Source of the DNA: a virus
IMG/VR virus record: IMGVR_UViG_3300020202_000174
Location: 1 to 34,044 of that record
Length of the DNA: 34,044 nucleotides
Reading direction: 5' to 3' (one strand)
Positions 1,988 to 31,739 of this stretch are shown in pieces (position 1 is the stretch's first letter; each line of letters opens with the position of its first letter). The notes below the pieces were generated by a model that did no database searches, was not told the origin of the DNA, and saw nothing but the letters and a program-made list of their open reading frames with translations. The position numbers and the translations under genes are program-made.

Positions 1988-2373
1988 TGAGCGACGAATT
2001 GTTCCCGGTTTTGCGCGGGGTTGTTTTGAACAATGGCCATATCGATCCCGTCACTGGCCCGCGATGCATGGTGAAGATGAGCGAGGGCCCGCATCGAGGC
2101 AAATACGTCATCGCGCACACCGATAGTCTGTTGGCGGGCGGCATCGAAGTTCATGTTCAGGAGAAGGGGAAGCGGAAGGCGTGGCCATGCGGCCACACTC
2201 CGGATCCGAATGGGCCGCCGCCCCTGGAGCGTTGGCACCCCGAGGAACTGGGCTGGCAGCGCATAGGCCCGCGCGCATGGGAGAGGCCGGACGGCACGCG
2301 GCATGAGTTCCCCGTGGGATGGCGCGAGGAGGTTTTGATAAGGCCGCCGCTTAGAAAAGGCGGTGTTCTATGA
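1984..2373 (+). CDS. Hypothetical phage protein, about 129 aa
   Basis: Tandem ATGs at 1984 and 1987 follow GAGAGGCG; either could be used. An upstream in-frame ATG at 1963 lacks coupling. The protein has a beta-rich N-terminal half (LFPVLRGVVLNNGHIDPVTG, MSEGPHRGKYVIAHTDSLLA) and a Trp/Pro-rich C-terminal half (LERWHPEELGWQRIGPRAWE). No recognised domain. It overlaps both neighbours by 4 nt. Confidence 0.62.
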   Translation: MMSDELFPVLRGVVLNNGHIDPVTGPRCMVKMSEGPHRGKYVIAHTDSLLAGGIEVHVQEKGKRKAWPCGHTPDPNGPPPLERWHPEELGWQRIGPRAWERPDGTRHEFPVGWREEVLIRPPLRKGGVL

Positions 2374-2642
2374 TCGATCTCTTACGCATCGCTGAGTTGG
2401 CTGACGAGTACACATTCCCGGATCACGCGATGGCGGGCCGCGTTGGTGGCACGCTGACGATTGGAGAGCTTCGGGAAATGCTGAGCATCGTGGCGTTCAC
2501 CCTTGAGGCGCAAGAGATCGGCCGGTCCGTTATTCGCGACGAAGAGCCGTTCGCGAAGACTGCTGCCACACCGCTCGAATCGCGGGTGACGTACCTGGAA
2601 AGGCTGGTCGGCGAACTCAAGGGTTGGAGACTGGAGGAATGA
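2370..2642 (+). CDS. Small hypothetical protein, 90 aa, mostly helical
   Basis: ATG at 2370 overlaps the previous TGA. Residues 1-40 contain LLRIAELADEYTFPDHAMAG, and the C-terminal third looks like a short coiled coil (LESRVTYLERLVGELKGW). No family recognised. It ends at TGA 2640-2642, within the ATGATG that starts the next gene. Confidence 0.6.
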   Translation: MIDLLRIAELADEYTFPDHAMAGRVGGTLTIGELREMLSIVAFTLEAQEIGRSVIRDEEPFAKTAATPLESRVTYLERLVGELKGWRLEE

Positions 2643-2869
2643 TGGCTGAGTCGAGCATTGAAGCTGATTGGGGCGACGCATGGCATCCAATCGAGACGGC
2701 GCCGAGGGATGGGACGCGGGTCCTGTTCTGCGCGTCACCCGACTACCGTGGCGACCGCGTCCACATCGGCTGGTTCAACAAGTGGGGTGAGGCTTGTTGG
2801 CAGGGTCTCGCCCACAACCCGACGCCGGTAGCATGGCAGCCCCTGCCAGAACCGAAAAAATCACCGTAG
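2642..2869 (+). CDS. DUF551-like small phage protein, 75 aa
   Basis: The sequence DAWHPIETAPRDGTRVLFCA followed by HIGWFNKWGEACW and VAWQPLPEP is the DUF551 signature. That signature is W-x-P-I-x-x-A-P-x-D-G-T followed by a W-x-P-L-P ending, and the function is unknown. ATG 2642 is favoured because GGAGGA ends at 2638; ATG 2639 is directly abutting. A second copy of this domain is embedded in the large leftward gene at 32524-33981. This is the last gene before the structured noncoding region. Confidence 0.78.
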   Translation: MAESSIEADWGDAWHPIETAPRDGTRVLFCASPDYRGDRVHIGWFNKWGEACWQGLAHNPTPVAWQPLPEPKKSP

Positions 2870-2935
2870 AATCGCGCTTTCACAGCGTTTGTTCTCGACT
2901 CGTTCTCACAGATGGAGTAGACCAGAAAAGCGAAA

Positions 2936-3382
2936 GGGCTCAACCATTACGTGAGCCCCTTCGGAGTCGGATGTAGTTCCAGCTACGAGCCGCCTCGATG
3001 GTCGAACCACCTACCCGGATAATAGGTTAGATGGCGACACTATTCAACCCGCATGCTGGCCCGGCTCGAACCGGAACATGGGATCTCCGTCGCCCACCAA
3101 TAGGACGGTCAAATGCGGGCTCTCCTTGCCAGGAACCCGCGACCTGTACGGTGCCGCAACTGCGGTCTGGGACGGTAGGGGGCCATTTCTTCCAGCGAGC
3201 GTGACTTCTCGCAATATGGATGGCCTCGGGTAGCCCTATAGCTGCCCAAAGTGGAGCCGCGGTGGAAATACGCGGTGCTCGCGAGCGAAAGCAACCGAGC
3301 GAAGGCACTGAGTACACGAGCCGCGAGGCTTCCCCCTAGTCAGGGGCTATCGAAGAGGGACCTGTACCCTCACCGGTAGGTG
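2936..3382 (+). ncRNA. Candidate large structured noncoding RNA (about 450 nt), undescribed as far as I can tell
   Basis: No credible gene covers 2870-3408. Reading + strand RNA, perfect or near-perfect stems follow one another: 2936-2942/2952-2958, 3009-3013/3023-3027, 3033-3038/3089-3094 (enclosing 3048-3055/3077-3082 with one bulge, enclosing 3061-3064/3071-3074), 3115-3119/3136-3140 (enclosing 3123-3126/3131-3134), 3154-3157/3162-3165, 3181-3186/3220-3225 (enclosing 3195-3199/3208-3212), 3228-3234/3241-3247, 3257-3261/3271-3275, 3275-3282/3299-3308, 3318-3322/3327-3331, 3333-3336/3343-3346, 3355-3359/3367-3371, 3371-3374/3379-3382. Two tetraloops are GNRA (GCGA, GAAA). Such nesting recalls the ornate phage RNAs GOLLD and ROOL, but I cannot match either. 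Strand and ends are inferred; 3' leader use for the 3409 gene is possible. Confidence 0.55.
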
Positions 3383-3408
3383 GAAAAGGCAACGCTATGG
3401 AGAGAACG

Positions 3409-3669
3409 ATGAGAGTGCCCGACTTGAAGAGCGCAGAACGCAAGAGACTAGAGACACGACGACAACGTGACCGAGATCTACGCGATTGGGCGCAGCCTGA
3501 ACTGCGCAAGTGCGAGGCCAAAGACGAGGACACTTGCCGAGCACTGTACTGCCCGAAGCATCGACAGCGACTCGCGTACTGCCCGTGGGAGAAAAACGGC
3601 CACGTCACGCCTCCCGGCGAGTCCGGCTGCCGCGTGCCAAAGCATCTTATCCAAGGAGGAACAGCATGA
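3409..3669 (+). CDS. Small basic Cys-containing protein, 86 aa
   Basis: ATG 3409 is preferred because GGAGAG sits five bases upstream. ATG 3397 is in frame but has only AAGG upstream. The N-terminal half is very basic and helical (KSAERKRLETRRQRDRDLRD). The second half has several Cys and His (CEAKDEDTCRALYCPKHRQR, YCPWEK), possibly a metal site. It is the first gene after the structured RNA, 26 nt downstream of the last hairpin. Function unknown. Confidence 0.58.
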   Translation: MRVPDLKSAERKRLETRRQRDRDLRDWAQPELRKCEAKDEDTCRALYCPKHRQRLAYCPWEKNGHVTPPGESGCRVPKHLIQGGTA

Positions 3670-3860
3670 GCATACCATCCAGCGCAGATATGGAAGCCGC
3701 CCGCGAATGGGTCCTGAAGACCGAGGAATGGTCAGAGACGCCAAAGGAAGGCGTTCTCGGCCCCAGCGGCATGATGTGGCGTGAACTGCACTGCTCGCGC
3801 TGTGGCGAGGATTTCTGGTCGTGCCGCGCGGGCCATGACCATTCGTGCCAAAGCATCTGA
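3666..3860 (+). CDS. Small hypothetical protein with Cys pair, 64 aa
   Basis: ATG 3666 follows a very strong AAGGAGGAAC ribosome site and overlaps the previous TGA, so this start is firm. The C-terminal half shows LHCSRCGEDFWSCRAGHDHS, a C-x2-C with later Cys and two His, compatible with a small zinc ribbon. Family not recognised. Confidence 0.62.
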   Translation: MSIPSSADMEAAREWVLKTEEWSETPKEGVLGPSGMMWRELHCSRCGEDFWSCRAGHDHSCQSI

Positions 3861-3879
3861 TTACGACTGGAGGGACGGC

Positions 3880-4098
3880 ATGAGTGAGCGTTTCGACCCA
3901 AGTGACGGTGAAGGGCAGTACGCCGATCCCCGCGTCTTCGTATGCCAGGGGCCGCCCGTGTGTGAACTGCAGGACGAAGATGCCGTTCGCGCCCAACAGA
4001 TGCGGGCGGCAGGCATGAAAGAAGGCTGCCCATGGTGCAAGGTCATCACCGTTCACCCGGATGGTAGCGAGACGACAGAGGCGCCGGGGCGCGCATGA
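3880..4098 (+). CDS. Small acidic hypothetical protein, 72 aa
   Basis: ATG 3880 has GGAGGGAC upstream. An earlier in-frame ATG at 3781 would overlap the previous gene without a ribosome site. The protein is acidic at its start (FDPSDGEGQYADPR) and has Cys near both ends (VCQGPPVCE, GCPWCKV). No family recognised. It overlaps the HNH-like gene by 4 nt. Confidence 0.58.
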   Translation: MSERFDPSDGEGQYADPRVFVCQGPPVCELQDEDAVRAQQMRAAGMKEGCPWCKVITVHPDGSETTEAPGRA

Positions 4099-4361
4099 TC
4101 CGCATCGCATTCCTCCTGCTTATCCTCTCATTCCCCACCCACGGGAGAGACCGGAACGTCCCGGCCGCTTTCCAGCGCGAGTTTCCCTGCCCCTCAACAG
4201 GCAAGACGACCGGCGCCTGCCCTGGCTGGACCAGAGATCATTGGATTCCGCTTGCCTGTGGTGGGCCTGACACGATCGACAACATGGTTTGGCAGACCAC
4301 GGAAGAAGCCAAAGCCAAGGACAAATGGGAGCTGAAGGGATGCCGAAGAAAGGCGAAGTAA
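4095..4361 (+). CDS. HNH-like endonuclease with N-terminal hydrophobic leader, 88 aa
   Basis: Residues 1-17 ([17 protein letters not shown]) look like a signal peptide or membrane anchor. The rest carries [20 protein letters not shown], then [18 protein letters not shown]. That gives a D-H pair, a G-G-x-D-x-x-x-N turn and a downstream [14 protein letters not shown], the order of an HNH/treble-clef nuclease. Export of a phage HNH enzyme is unusual and fits a periplasmic nuclease, though this is inference. ATG 4095 overlaps the previous stop. The last 22 nt overlap the following HNH-type gene in another frame. Confidence 0.68.
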
Positions 4362-5062
4362 TTGATCTGACTGGGCGCGGTTTTGGTCGGCTGACCGTTC
4401 TTGGGTATTCCGGCACGAACCGAAAGCGCAGTGCGCAATGGCACTGCCTGTGTTCCTGCGGGTCGACCAAGACCATCGACGGGATGTCGCTGCGAAAGGG
4501 CGATACGACCTCATGTGGATGCTATCAGCGCGAATCCTCTGCCGCTCGCAACGCGGTGCTGAAGGTCACGCACGGTCATACGGGGACGCCAGAATATCAT
4601 TCTTGGCGGGCCATGATGGCTCGCTGTCGGAATCCTAAGCACGACGCGTTCTCGCGATATGGCGGTCTCGGCATCGCCGTATGCGATCGGTGGGAGAGTT
4701 TCGAGAATTTCTTGGCCGACATGGGGCCGCGACCTGTTGGGATGACCCTGGAGCGAATCGACAACGGCGCCTCCTACGAACCAAGCAACTGTCGATGGGC
4801 AAGTCCCATTGAGCAGGCGCGGAACCGTAGGTGCAACCTTGGGCCGGTGACGGCCTTCGGGGAGGTCCGTCCGATCTGGGAATGGGTGGTTGATCCAAGG
4901 TGCCGCGTCACTGAGCGAACGCTACGCAAGCGGTTGGCCGCTGGCTGGTCGGGAGAACGGGCACTCACCGGGACGGAGTCTGAATTGCGACACATTGCGT
5001 CCGTTGCTCGCGAGCGCGCCAAGAAGCTCAAGACCCGCGTTGCACCCCTCCCTTGCCAATAG
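4340..5062 (+). CDS. Homing-type HNH endonuclease, 240 aa
   Basis: ATG 4340 has GAAGGG just upstream; the frame is open further left but inside the previous gene. Residues 8-65 form a Cys-rich domain ([25 protein letters not shown]). Residues about 90-170 hold the phage homing-nuclease pattern [41 protein letters not shown], then Q-A-R-N-R-R. The C-terminal part looks like a DNA-binding helix set ([18 protein letters not shown]). These enzymes usually spread themselves and are not needed for growth. It lies between early genes and the packaging operon. Confidence 0.8.
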
Positions 5063-5070
5063 GAGAAGCG

Positions 5071-5316
5071 ATGACTATGACCGACATCACGATCGAGAAG
5101 GGCATACCCTTCCCCCAGCCCACCCTCCGTCCCAAGGGCCGCCCCCTGGTCCATCGCTGGGACCTCATGGAGGTGGGAGACTCACGCCTCATGCCCACCC
5201 AGGGCTCTGCGAGGTGCGCCATTGACTGGGGCCTGCGTAACGGCCGGGTGTTCCTGATGGCGAAGGAGAAGACAAAGAAGCCGCCGTATGGATGGCGAGT
5301 GTGGCGCAAGACTTAG
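5071..5316 (+). CDS. Small phage protein of the common MEVGDS type, 81 aa
   Basis: ATG 5071 follows AGGAGAAGCG. The sequence DITIEKGIPFPQP, HRWDLMEVGDSRLMP and the ending YGWRVWRKT match a short protein seen widely in phages (I recall it as a DUF7303-like family; the name needs checking). Function unknown. A beta-rich fold is likely. It is the last gene before the packaging operon. Confidence 0.68.
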   Translation: MTMTDITIEKGIPFPQPTLRPKGRPLVHRWDLMEVGDSRLMPTQGSARCAIDWGLRNGRVFLMAKEKTKKPPYGWRVWRKT

Positions 5317-5341
5317 TATCGGATATTCGCAGGGTGTAGCG

Positions 5342-5360
5342 CACTATACTGGCTATAGTG
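5342..5360. promoter_or_regulatory. Perfect inverted repeat upstream of the late operon
   Basis: CACTATA-CTGGC-TATAGTG has perfect 7-bp arms and a 5-bp spacer, and lies about 40 bp before TerS. It contains two overlapping -10-like hexamers (TATACT 5345-5350, TATAGT 5354-5359). No convincing -35 is visible. It could be an operator or an activator-dependent late promoter. Confidence 0.4.
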
Positions 5361-5401
5361 ATACTGCGCTCGTTCATCTTCCCCACGGATGACGAGGCAT
5401 A

Positions 5402-5782
5402 ATGGCCGAAAGAGGCCGCCCTTCCATCTTCTCCGAAGAGTTGGCGACTCGCATCTGCGAGCGTCTTGCTGCGGGCGAAACGCTCCGCGCAATCTGCCGT
5501 GACGATGATATGCCGGATGAGCGCACTGTCCGCACTTGGGCGCGGGACAACGAGGTATTTTCCCCGCAGTACGCGAAGGCCCGTGAGATCGGCTACCAGG
5601 GGATGGCCGACGAAATCATTGTGATTGCAGATGCCAGCGATGACGCACGCTTGCAGGTCGATACACGCAAGTGGCTGATGAGCAAGGCGCTGCCGAAGAT
5701 CTACGGCGACAAGCAGACCATGGAGCACGAGGGCAATATCACTGTCGTCGTCCGCAAGTTCTCGGAAGAAGCGATTGGCTGA
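5402..5782 (+). CDS. Terminase small subunit (TerS)
   Basis: The 126-residue protein begins GRPSIFSEELATRICERLAA, then AICRDDDMPDERTVRTWARD. This is the helix-turn-helix that recognises the packaging site. It continues to RLQVDTRKWLMSKALPKIYGDK, the conserved end of the helical core in phage terminase small-subunit-like proteins. The C-terminal tail (GNITVVVRKFSEEAIG) likely contacts the large subunit. Small subunits form rings that load the motor on concatemeric DNA. It is translationally coupled to TerL by an 8-nt overlap. Confidence 0.9.
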   Translation: MAERGRPSIFSEELATRICERLAAGETLRAICRDDDMPDERTVRTWARDNEVFSPQYAKAREIGYQGMADEIIVIADASDDARLQVDTRKWLMSKALPKIYGDKQTMEHEGNITVVVRKFSEEAIG

Positions 5783-7103
5783 AATCGCTCTCCCGAATGG
5801 CTGGTCGCCGCGCCCGTACCAACAGCCCCTATGGAGATACCTGGAGCAGGGCGGCAAGCGAGCGGCAGCATGCTGGCATCGTCGCGCCGGCAAGGATGAT
5901 ATTGGGCTGAACTACGCCGCCACAGCAGCATTCGAGCGTCCGGCCAACTACTGGCACATGCTGCCCGAATACAAGCAGGCCCGGAAGGCCATCTGGACGG
6001 CCGTGGATGCCAAGACGGGCAAGCGTCGCCTCGATCAGGCTTTCCCGAAGGCTCTTCGCCGTCGCACCAATGACAACGAAATGTTCATCGAGTTCGTCAA
6101 CGGTGCGACATGGCAGGTCGTGGGGTCCGACCGATTTGACTCGGCCGTAGGCGCCGGCCCGGCTGGCATTGTGTTCTCTGAATGGTCGCTCTCAAACCCG
6201 AGAGCCTGGGGAACGCTTGCCCCGATGCTGGAGGAGAACGGCGGCTGGGCGCTGTTCATCTACACGGCGAGGGGCGCGAACCACGGTGAATCCACCATCA
6301 AGATGGCGAAGGAAACGCCTGGCTGGTTCGGTGAGATCCTGACGGCGAGAGACACCGGCATTTTCAATGACGAGCAATTAGCGCGCATCAGGACCGAATA
6401 CATCAAGCTGGACCCGCAGAGCGGCGAGGCGCTGTTTGAGCAGGAATATTTCTGCAGCTTCGCATCAGCCACGCACGGGGCCTATTGGGCCAAGGAGGTC
6501 GCCGTTGCCGACGCCGATGGCCGAATCTGTGACGTGCCGGTCGACATTGAGCAGCCTGTGCATACCGCGTGGGATCTGGGGGTGAGAGATGCCACGGCCA
6601 TATGGTTCTTTCAGGTATTGGCGGGTGGACTCAACATCGTCGATTTTTACGAGGCTTCAGGTGTGGGTCTCGATCACTACAACGATATTCTTCGCTCAAG
6701 GGCGCGTGTTGGGGGCTACCAGCTCGGTACCTGTCACGTCCCACACGACGCGAAGGTCAAGGAATGGGGCTCGGGCAAGACTCGCCTGGAGCAGATGGAA
6801 GCGCTCGGGCTCGCGCACGAAGTCGTCCCCGACCACAGGCTGATGGATGGCATTGGCGGCGCGCGTGAGACGCTGGCTCGTGTGCGCTTTGACCGCGAGC
6901 GCTGCAAGGATGGCGTAGAGGCCCTGAAGCAGTACCGCGCCGACTACGACGAAGAGCGCAAGGTCTTAAAGCCCACGCCTCGGCACGACTGGACGAGCCA
7001 CGCTGCCGACGCATTCCGCTACCTAGCGATGGGCTGGCGCGACTTCAGCGAGCCTAGGGAAGACGACGCGCCCGCGCCCCAGGCTGGATGGATGGCCGCA
7101 TGA
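5775..7103 (+). CDS. Terminase large subunit (TerL)
   Basis: TTG 5775 is the start, with GGAAGAAG upstream; no ATG lies in the N-terminal ATPase region. The 442-residue motor has an atypical Walker A (WHRRAGKDD, Lys about 40), Walker B (GIVFSE, Glu about 136), then a coupling region. The RNase H-like nuclease starts at HTAWDLGVRDATAIW (Asp about 267) and ends with a late acidic residue in HAADAFRYL. ATP hydrolysis drives DNA through the portal and the nuclease makes the headful or site-specific cut. This WHRRAGKDD type is common with P22-like portals. Confidence 0.93.
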   Translation: MAEIALPNGWSPRPYQQPLWRYLEQGGKRAAACWHRRAGKDDIGLNYAATAAFERPANYWHMLPEYKQARKAIWTAVDAKTGKRRLDQAFPKALRRRTNDNEMFIEFVNGATWQVVGSDRFDSAVGAGPAGIVFSEWSLSNPRAWGTLAPMLEENGGWALFIYTARGANHGESTIKMAKETPGWFGEILTARDTGIFNDEQLARIRTEYIKLDPQSGEALFEQEYFCSFASATHGAYWAKEVAVADADGRICDVPVDIEQPVHTAWDLGVRDATAIWFFQVLAGGLNIVDFYEASGVGLDHYNDILRSRARVGGYQLGTCHVPHDAKVKEWGSGKTRLEQMEALGLAHEVVPDHRLMDGIGGARETLARVRFDRERCKDGVEALKQYRADYDEERKVLKPTPRHDWTSHAADAFRYLAMGWRDFSEPREDDAPAPQAGWMAA

Positions 7104-26182: not shown

Positions 26183-26257
26183 TGGAGCGTCCGGCAGGAA
26201 TCGAACCCGTCGTCATCGGTTTGGAAGACCGAAGCTCTGCCATTGAGCTACGGACGC
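26183..26257 (-). tRNA. tRNA-Gly (anticodon TCC)
   Basis: The reverse strand folds as a full cloverleaf: acceptor GCGTCCG/CGGACGC, D-stem GCTC/GAGC with loop AATGGCA, and anticodon stem TCGGT/ACCGA with loop CTTCCAA. The anticodon TCC is at 26223-26225. The T-arm has loop TTCGATT. The T-stem has a mismatch at the outer pair and one G-T pair. The discriminator T and CCA are encoded (26183-26186). It reads GGA and sits between the two spanin genes on the opposite strand. Confidence 0.93.
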
Positions 26258-29967: not shown

Positions 29968-30016
29968 TGGCGCTCCCTACGGGATTCGAACCCGTGTTTC
30001 AGCCTTGAGAGGGCCA
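29968..30016 (-). other. Probable attP core: 3' fragment of tRNA-Glu (anticodon CTC)
   Basis: On the reverse strand are anticodon stem TGGCC/GGCTG with loop CTCTCAA (CTC at 30007-30009), T-arm ACGGG-TTCGAAT-CCCGT, acceptor half AGGGAGC, discriminator G and CCA (29968-29970). The 5' half (acceptor, D-arm) is absent. The fragment lies 21 nt past the integrase stop. Phages that integrate in tRNA genes carry the 3' half to restore the host gene, so this should be the crossover region. Confidence 0.82.
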
Positions 30017-30037
30017 AGCCGCATTGTGTCGAATCAA

Positions 30038-31078
30038 TCACTTGGCCTTCCTCTCCCGCAGGATTCCCGCCAAAGCGCCGGCCTCGCGTCCGGGGATCGG
30101 CGTCGGCCTGACGTGCTGGTAGCGATGCAGGGAGCGAGCGTCGCGCCACATGCCCAGCTCGGCGGCCCGCTTGTCCGGGATCTGGGCGGCGTCGGCGGCG
30201 GTCGCCAGAGCATGCCGGCTCATGTGCGGGGTGTAGGCGACGCCCAGCCGCTCCCGCAGGGGCTTCAGCCAAGCGTAGACCCCGCGCCGCGTCTCCCATG
30301 GGAACAGCCGCCCTTCCTTCTTCGGCAGATTGGCAAGCATGGTGACGACGGCAGGCCCCACCTCAAGTGTCGCCCAGTCGTCGGTCTTGCCGATCTGCAC
30401 CGACACCTTGCCGGCCCGCAGGTCGATGCGTTCCCAGTCGATCTTGAGATAGTCGGTGATCCGCAGCCCCAGCTCGTACAGCATGGCAATCAGGATGCGC
30501 TTGTAGGCCACTTGATGATCGCGCTTCCTGCCCAGCTTATTTGCCCGTGGAGGGGCTTCAGCGTTCTCCATGAGCAAGGCCATGGTTTCCTCTGGCGCCG
30601 CCTGGCGGGGCGATTTACGGCTCACCCAGAGCTTCTTGATGCGCCGGTAGTCGCACCACTCCTGTTCGGACGCATAGTGCAGGATGGCGGCTCCCACGCC
30701 GATGACCTTGCGATTCTTGGTAGCGTCCGACCGTCCGGGCTTCAGGGCGTCGGCGGCGGCCACCAGGGCGGCATGGTTGACGGCTCGGCAATCGACACGC
30801 CCGATGTGGGCGGCGACGGCATCCACGAGGGCAATGTCGCTCGTTGAGAGGTGTGGTTTGGCGGCCTTGTAGAACTCGGCGGCGTCGGCGAAGGCTACCG
30901 TCTCTCCCCGGCCGGGAACGCGACGACGCGCCCGCTCGGCGAGGTAGTCCTGTGCGAACGCCTCAGCGCCGCGGCGATCCCGCCGTCCCGTGGAGACCTC
31001 AAACCTGCCCGAGGCATCGCGACCGCTGATATACCACGAGGCGCCGCGCTTGCCGGGTGGGATGTACTTGATCCGCAT
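30038..31078 (-). CDS. Tyrosine integrase, 346 aa
   Basis: ATG 31078 (MRIKYIPPGKRGASWYISGR) follows AAGGAG; the frame is open further upstream but overlaps the Xis-like gene and reads as nonsense. An N-terminal beta arm-binding domain (1-50) and core-binding helices (60-160) precede the catalytic part: Arg 206 (YELGLRITDY), Lys 231 (QIGKTDDW), His 285/Arg 288 (PHMSRHA) and Tyr 320 (LHRYQH). It would join attP to a tRNA-Glu gene. It runs toward the att fragment. Confidence 0.93.
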   Translation of the reverse strand: MRIKYIPPGKRGASWYISGRDASGRFEVSTGRRDRRGAEAFAQDYLAERARRRVPGRGETVAFADAAEFYKAAKPHLSTSDIALVDAVAAHIGRVDCRAVNHAALVAAADALKPGRSDATKNRKVIGVGAAILHYASEQEWCDYRRIKKLWVSRKSPRQAAPEETMALLMENAEAPPRANKLGRKRDHQVAYKRILIAMLYELGLRITDYLKIDWERIDLRAGKVSVQIGKTDDWATLEVGPAVVTMLANLPKKEGRLFPWETRRGVYAWLKPLRERLGVAYTPHMSRHALATAADAAQIPDKRAAELGMWRDARSLHRYQHVRPTPIPGREAGALAGILRERKAK

Positions 31079-31248
31079 GCCGTCCGCTCCTTGGCCTCCA
31101 AGGCCTTGTAGTCGTCTTCGGTGATGCGCGCGGCTCTCCCCCGCCCGATCGGCGCGATGTTGTGTACGGCCAAACGGGATTTCAAGAACCGCACGGACCA
31201 CTGTAGGCGGCTGGCGGCTTGGGGGAGGCTTAGGCGCTTGTCGCTCAT
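30895..31248 (-). CDS. Xis-like small HTH protein overlapping the integrase, 117 aa
   Basis: The first 55 residues, MSDKRLSLPQAASRLQWSVR, then FLKSRLAVHNIAPIGRGRAA and RITEDDYKALEA, look like a MerR/excisionase-type winged helix. The frame then continues as a Ser/Ala/Arg-rich tail for 184 nt inside the start of integrase in another frame. As I recall, similar long overlaps occur in related phages, so the tail may be real. It probably bends DNA to steer integrase toward excision. Confidence 0.68.
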   Translation of the reverse strand: MSDKRLSLPQAASRLQWSVRFLKSRLAVHNIAPIGRGRAARITEDDYKALEAKERTACGSSTSHPASAAPRGISAVAMPRAGLRSPRDGGIAAALRRSHRTTSPSGRVVAFPAGERR

Positions 31249-31739
31249 CCAAACCTCGCAAATTCCGGGTCAATCTCCATCGCCGCCTTGCAATAGGCTG
31301 CATGGGCTTCGGCGGCGGTGGCGAAGCAGCCAAGATGGCGCTGCCGGCCGTCGCGCCGAATTTTCGCCATCCAGCGCTTGTCCCTGGTGTTAAAATGAAC
31401 ACCCTTAAACCCGGAGGCATTGTCGCGCCGCTTGCGAGAATTTCGTTGATTTTGGGTGCCTGTTGCCTCGCGCAGGTTGTCGAAACGATCGTTGTTGCGA
31501 ACGCCATCTCTGTGATCAATCTGAGCGGCCGGCCACTCACCCGTCATGTAGAGCCACGCCAGCCGATTCGCGCAATGGTGCACGCCGTCGATGGTTATCT
31601 GCCGATAGCCCTCTCCATTGAGCCAGCCCGCGATGGAGTCCGCCGCAACGCCGGGGCGCCTGACGATCCAGGTGAAGACGCCTGTCTCCGGGTCATAGTG
31701 CAGAAGCTCTCTCAGGTATTGCGCTGTCAGCTTCTTCAT
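31245..31739 (-). CDS. HNH endonuclease with AP2 domain, 164 aa
   Basis: Residues 1-90 carry LLHYDPETGVFTWIVRR and RLAWLYMTGEWPAAQIDHRD, GVRNNDRFDNLREAT. This is the H-x-x-x-x-x-x-N-D-R-x-x-N-L-R pattern of phage HNH nucleases. Residues about 108-155 (ASGFKGVHFNTRDKRWMAKI, LGCFATAAEAHAAYCKA) are an AP2 DNA-binding domain. Typical selfish nuclease. Its start overlaps the stop of the upstream gene. Confidence 0.88.
   Translation of the reverse strand: MKKLTAQYLRELLHYDPETGVFTWIVRRPGVAADSIAGWLNGEGYRQITIDGVHHCANRLAWLYMTGEWPAAQIDHRDGVRNNDRFDNLREATGTQNQRNSRKRRDNASGFKGVHFNTRDKRWMAKIRRDGRQRHLGCFATAAEAHAAYCKAAMEIDPEFARFG

Follow-up and report, generated by a model that had tools for sequence, protein, structure and literature searches.

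GOLLD and ROOL form homo-oligomeric RNA cages, and the put and late-leader RNAs of lambdoid phages sit at the early/late junction, before the late genes. Both GOLLD and ROOL are large structured RNAs of phages and prophages whose function is unknown, and they are often encoded near phage tRNA islands (PMC12286853). We analysed an IMG/VR virus record of 34,044 bases (the window, that is, the whole stretch of DNA), in which a non-coding block (Table 1) shares with GOLLD and ROOL a large predicted structure and a phage setting. The block is, however, not beside a tRNA island, the only tRNA gene being 23 kb away. Like the put and late-leader RNAs, it lies at the early/late junction, on the + strand and directly before late genes; it differs from them in being several times longer, in having no sequence match to them and in that no regulator was identified beside it.

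A cmscan search against all Rfam 15 families, run with strict and with permissive filters, gave no match of useful score on the block, which bears out the view of a preliminary description that it falls into no known class. That description had likened the block to GOLLD and ROOL; neither covariance model matched even with permissive filters, and the stem density on which the likeness was argued does not separate the block from shuffled sequence. The Rfam models of group I and group II introns, HEARO and OLE likewise had no match in the block. A hairpin at 3254-3281 that resembles intron domain V was rejected because its stem lengths are wrong for that domain. Neither ARAGORN nor RF00005 found a tRNA or tmRNA cloverleaf in the block, and the idea that 3033-3098 resembles a tRNA ending in CACCA was dropped, having no ARAGORN or model support. 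Y RNAs are marked by a conserved stem that binds Ro60; their YrlA model (RF02553), which finds Y RNA in Rhizobium phages, had no match in the window. In the block, GGCGA at 3033 and UCGCC at 3090 would pair much as the foot of the Y-RNA stem does, but this likeness covers 5-6 bp and could be chance. DUF3800 RNA motifs had no Rfam model match in the block, and no DUF3800 gene was found in the window record.

By its gene content the window is a temperate tailed phage, since terminase, portal, scaffold, coat, head-closure, ejection and endolysin genes were identified in it together with an integrase, and it is probably P22/Sf6-like. In an annotated phage collection, its terminase best matches those of Bradyrhizobium, Rhizobium and Acetobacter phages (48-53% identity); the nearest uncultured relatives reach 55-56%, and searches with neighbouring genes brought no relative closer than 56% for the large terminase or 41% for the capsid protein. 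All genes from the 3' side of the block through the terminase are on the same strand. Between the block and the terminase genes we observed an HNH endonuclease gene (4340-5062, +) and a short HNH-like ORF (4095-4361, +); relatives of the endonuclease sit just before the terminase in two related loci (L017 and L035). Elsewhere, the sole tRNA gene of the window, a complete tRNA-Gly(TCC) gene (26183-26257, -), stands amid + strand genes, and a weak partial tRNA match at the 3' end of the integrase gene (29979-30047, -; 23.3 bits, under the gathering score) is perhaps an attachment site.

The gene-free gap of about 540 bases first described was confirmed, at 527-539 nt between the end of one ORF at 2869 and the start of the next at 3397 or 3409, of which the ATG at 3409 is the better placed, with a Shine-Dalgarno-like GGAGAG. 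All six frames scored negative in a hexamer model trained on the window phage and its relatives, and in a simple gene-finding HMM 2840-3453 was the longest non-coding segment of the window. The promoter-like site is the sole + strand match within 2300-5800, with a predicted RNA start near 2879.

Our judgement is that the block probably encodes a phage RNA at the early/late junction, though this is unproven; the RNA falls into no class and has no demonstrated relation to any known family. In the reading that we favour, at a probability of roughly 0.4, it is a phage RNA locus giving a + strand RNA of about 450-500 nt that has several hairpin domains and acts as RNA. Such an RNA would be transcribed from a promoter near 2843-2872, in a locus set between the early/replication genes and the packaging (late) genes; it would fold into its hairpin domains and would probably act in trans, perhaps after excision from a late-operon leader. 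This reading is patterned on the small-RNA island that Rhizobium phages carry upstream of the terminase, with a Y-RNA core, a DUF3800-VIII-like RNA and tRNA-like units. Transcription, processing and action in trans are inferred for the block, as is any kinship with the Rhizobium RNAs, of which sequence comparison gave no sign.

Table 1. Coordinates of the block, its predicted structural elements, genes of the window and the islands of Rhizobium phages.
Feature	Location	Strand	Basis or remark
75-aa ORF, last gene before block	2642-2869	+	no Pfam match
Promoter-like site CTGCCA-18-TAGAAT	2843-2872	+	consensus match only
Non-coding block, candidate structured RNA	2870-3408	+	hexamer model, HMM, family searches
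Strong 5' hairpin CGAAAGGGCTCA/TGAGCCCCTTCG	2931-2963	+	12-nt arms 2931-2942/2952-2963; fold and inverted repeat
Long-range closing stem, 5' side	3007-3018	+	pairs with 3373-3383; probability 0.84-0.89
Closing stem, 3' side	3373-3383	+	fold prediction
Nested stem of the preliminary description	3033-3094	+	outer probability ~0.4, inner CCGG/CCGG 0.85
Hairpin GCGGG/CCCGC and TCCT/AGGA	3107-3144	+	probability 0.47-0.99
Hairpin	3153-3166	+	fold prediction
Hairpin GGGGCCATTT/GGATGGCCTC around GCGAG/CTCGC	3179-3227	+	arms 3179-3188/3218-3227; probability 0.85-0.95
Hairpin GGGTAGC/GCTGCCC	3228-3247	+	probability 1.00
Long imperfect hairpin	3253-3332	+	arms 3253-3279/3304-3332; probability 0.92-0.97
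Two small hairpins CCCCT/AGGGG, GAGGG/CCCTC	3333-3371 (3333-3346, 3355-3371)	+	probability 0.94-1.00
Cys-rich ORF 3' of block	3397-3669	+	start likely 3409; no family
Small terminase (Sf6-like)	5402-5782	+	family searches
Large terminase	5775-7103	+	family searches
Integrase	30038-31540	-	family searches
Rhizobium phage island	L112:6366-7070		RHph_I3_18
Rhizobium phage island	L115:3610-4302		N3_2
Rhizobium phage island	L116:4597-5021		Y25
Rhizobium phage island	L117:4600-4976		N2
Rhizobium phage island	L118:4708-5107		I1_23
Rhizobium phage island	L119:4597-4877		Y1_10
Rhizobium phage island	L120:4600-4976		RHEph18

In the predicted architecture, the hairpins from 3107 to 3371 are all enclosed by the long-range closing stem, whose core is a 9-bp inverted repeat (CCACCTACC/GGTAGGTGG, 3007-3015/3375-3383) of which about one is expected by chance on our own estimate. 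Short direct repeats of 12, 10, 9 and 9 nt also occur. The structural details of the preliminary description fared unevenly. Its nested stem can form through GGCGAC/GTCGCC (3033-3038/3089-3094) and CCGG/CCGG (3061-3064/3071-3074), but the outer pairing has a probability of only about 0.4. The two GNRA loops that it reported were not recovered, the minimum free energy (MFE) fold having no GNRA tetraloop among its hairpin loops; GCGAAAGC near 3285 could make one on a 2-bp stem. Its repeated 9-mer, ACGAGCCGC, is present at 2985, with the second copy at 3316 rather than 3317, and about one such pair of repeats is expected by chance in 531 nt (our own estimate, from base composition).

Second, and close behind the stand-alone phage RNA, comes a cis-acting late-operon leader, that is, a 5' untranslated part of the packaging transcript that would serve antitermination (put-like), attenuation or translation control; we hold this to be possible, though doubtful. 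It would fit two features: the last predicted stem ends at 3383, leaving 26 nt before the likely start codon (3409) in which no intrinsic terminator was found, and the genes from there through the terminase share one strand. A switch-like arrangement also favours it: 3374-3379 may pair locally with 3347-3352 in competition with the closing stem, which gives 3347-3379 two mutually exclusive pairings. The length of the block argues the other way, known put-type elements being far shorter. So do the Rhizobium islands: they too stop immediately 5' of a ribosome-binding site, yet they hold Y-RNA- and DUF3800-type units that resemble stand-alone RNAs.

The MFE fold of the block has 19 helices of at least 4 bp; dinucleotide shuffles average 19.1 (s.d. 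2.2) and other tiles of the window genome 19.4. Longer helices, of at least 6 bp, show a mild excess (10 versus 7.0 in shuffles, 97th percentile). The named stems among the dozen or more originally described can form, but their density is that of shuffled sequence, and a good deal of the folding that made the block conspicuous is at chance level. Folding energy gave a different result from the stem counts: on the + strand the block had a z score of -2.61, below all 100 shuffles (-2.1 to -3.1 in repeat runs), and in a separate run its MFE was lower than that of all but 1 of 150 shuffles. An energy no better than shuffled sequence, named beforehand as evidence against an RNA, is thus not what we found. 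On the - strand z was -1.97, and the ensemble was more defined on the + strand (entropy 0.69 versus 1.20). Among the 76 non-overlapping 450-nt + strand tiles of the genome, the block ranks eighth by energy z, seven other tiles, mostly coding, having lower values; because of this rank in its own genome, we take the folding energy as mild support and not as proof.

Because its folding is not exceptional for the window genome, the block could instead make no functional RNA and be a spacer, a decayed gene or a region of DNA control, such as a promoter, an operator or a signal for packaging or replication. Its folds would then be incidental to GC-rich sequence, a reading that we consider somewhat unlikely. 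The shuffle-like number of stems, the modest energy rank, the chance expectation of about one 9-bp long-range inverted repeat and the failure to find conservation are all in keeping with it. A stretch of this length is, however, long for a densely coded phage, and the + strand both has an energy below nearly all shuffles and folds in a better defined way.

A DNA similarity search of phage, plasmid and E. coli collections returned nothing like the block, and blastn and nhmmer searches found no homologue in some 100 loci whose terminase or capsid genes are related, or in the non-coding blocks of those loci, records very near the window's own being possibly excluded from the homologue searches. 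Exact-pattern searches, made with five parts of the block in IMG/VR and with one in GTDB genomes, gave either nothing or short matches in unrelated sequence. A match of E ~1 in one related locus (L035) was set aside, as it falls among small genes and its folding does not surpass that of shuffles; so were 21-mer matches in two others (L171 and L172), which have only 24 nt in common and look like a peptide, FRFEPGQ, on the other strand. As no related copy was found, the candidate RNA cannot yet be proved.

Upstream of their terminase genes, the Rhizobium phages of Table 1 carry an unannotated block of about 280-750 nt. RHph_I3_18 was found through its related terminase and the others through the gene adjoining the island, a conserved 216-aa gene of no Pfam family that lies directly 5' of it (in N3_2 the island is one HNH gene further on). 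The islands are mosaics: a 67-nt unit is present at about 95-99% identity in five of six distinct phages and at about 74% in RHph_I3_18, the 3' end is common to some, and the remainder differs even between phages sharing those units, with middle parts exchanged. A linker CAACGAGATC also belongs to the mosaic. In the 67-nt unit the Rfam YrlA model found the Y-RNA core but not the tRNA-like module, at scores short of the gathering cutoff (E = 3.8e-5 and 7.8e-4 in 68 kb), and the Y25 island has a DUF3800-VIII match that misses its cutoff by 0.8 bits. Stretches that resemble tRNA and end in ACCA also occur, among them one in N3_2 that reads by eye as a diverged tRNA-Tyr ending in ACCA and that ARAGORN does not call. 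No TROVE/Ro60 or DUF3800 genes were found in these phages.

A unit of the Y1_10 island (L119:4762-4844) is homologous to a stretch upstream of the terminase in an uncultured phage (L020:7719-7809). All 14 tested pairs are kept between these two sequences, 3 of them with changes on both sides, compared with 35-54% of pairs in slid controls; shuffles do as well in 60 of 500 cases.

Used as positive controls, the Rhizobium islands had + strand z scores of -2.6 to -3.8, and the window block -3.0 in the same run. Like the block, they lie upstream of terminase genes on the same strand, are predicted to form multiple hairpins and have no terminator before the next ribosome-binding site. The two share no common sequence or model link, however: the block is without the Y-RNA core, the DUF3800-VIII RNA and the CAACGAGATC linker. 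A pattern search for that linker gave mostly chance matches. The Rhizobium islands are the best support for an RNA at the block, though of an indirect kind, and are themselves a stronger lead than the window block. A structured RNA at the block is plausible, because the block is non-coding, has a better and more defined fold on the + strand and a promoter-like site, and belongs to a phage whose relatives carry RNA units upstream of the terminase.

Of the 48 related loci whose sequence reaches at least 3.5 kb 5' of the large terminase, 15 (counting the window) contain a non-coding segment of more than 300 nt within 5 kb upstream of that gene. Such segments cluster upstream, making up 5.7% of the first 2 kb there and 0-1.4% downstream; by itself this clustering is weak evidence, because some segments are missed genes and several fold no better than shuffles. 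The same observations weakened the idea of a structured gap in all relatives.

Other features were seen upstream of terminase genes in relatives. In two uncultured phages, non-coding stretches at L071:5840-6190 and L081:7430-7800 are 68% identical over 365 nt. At L098:8432-8800 there are two stretches, each closed by a long stem and each with a good sigma-70-like promoter on its 5' side (TTGACG-17-CATAAG and TTGACC-18-TATAAG); the first reads by eye as a diverged tRNA-Gly that no program calls. An element GCGCAAATCAGT(T/A)ATC recurs in three phages (L112:6273, L105:6193 and L006:631), followed in two of them by CATATA at a similar distance, and is possibly a late-promoter or operator element.

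A broader proposal, which we rate as unlikely, is that phages with related terminases keep a fast-changing island of structured RNA between early and packaging genes, with a different set in each phage; the ~450-nt RNA of the window would then form a separate class and might be directed against host factors, either as a decoy or by mimicking tRNA or Y RNA.

A small protein gene missed by the family searches and the coding model is improbable. The block does hold open frames of up to 92 codons on the + strand and of 102 and 76 on the - strand, and a laxer HMM setting shrinks its non-coding part to 2860-3053. Against this, the open frames matched no Pfam family, their single PHROG match was to a family of unknown function (E = 0.006), and every frame scores negative. 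A divergent GOLLD or ROOL cage-forming RNA, to which the phage location, a size somewhat under that of ROOL and the long-range closing stem might point, is very improbable given the lack of a cmscan match with permissive filters and of a tRNA island adjoining the block.

Non-coding RNAs of phages are poorly annotated, and the known large ones have no established function. The significance of the window alone is modest, because a single copy without homologues is not provable by computation. If related phages do keep a variable RNA island at a fixed place, that site could become a source of new RNA classes, and in the cultured Rhizobium phages the function of such islands would be open to experiment.
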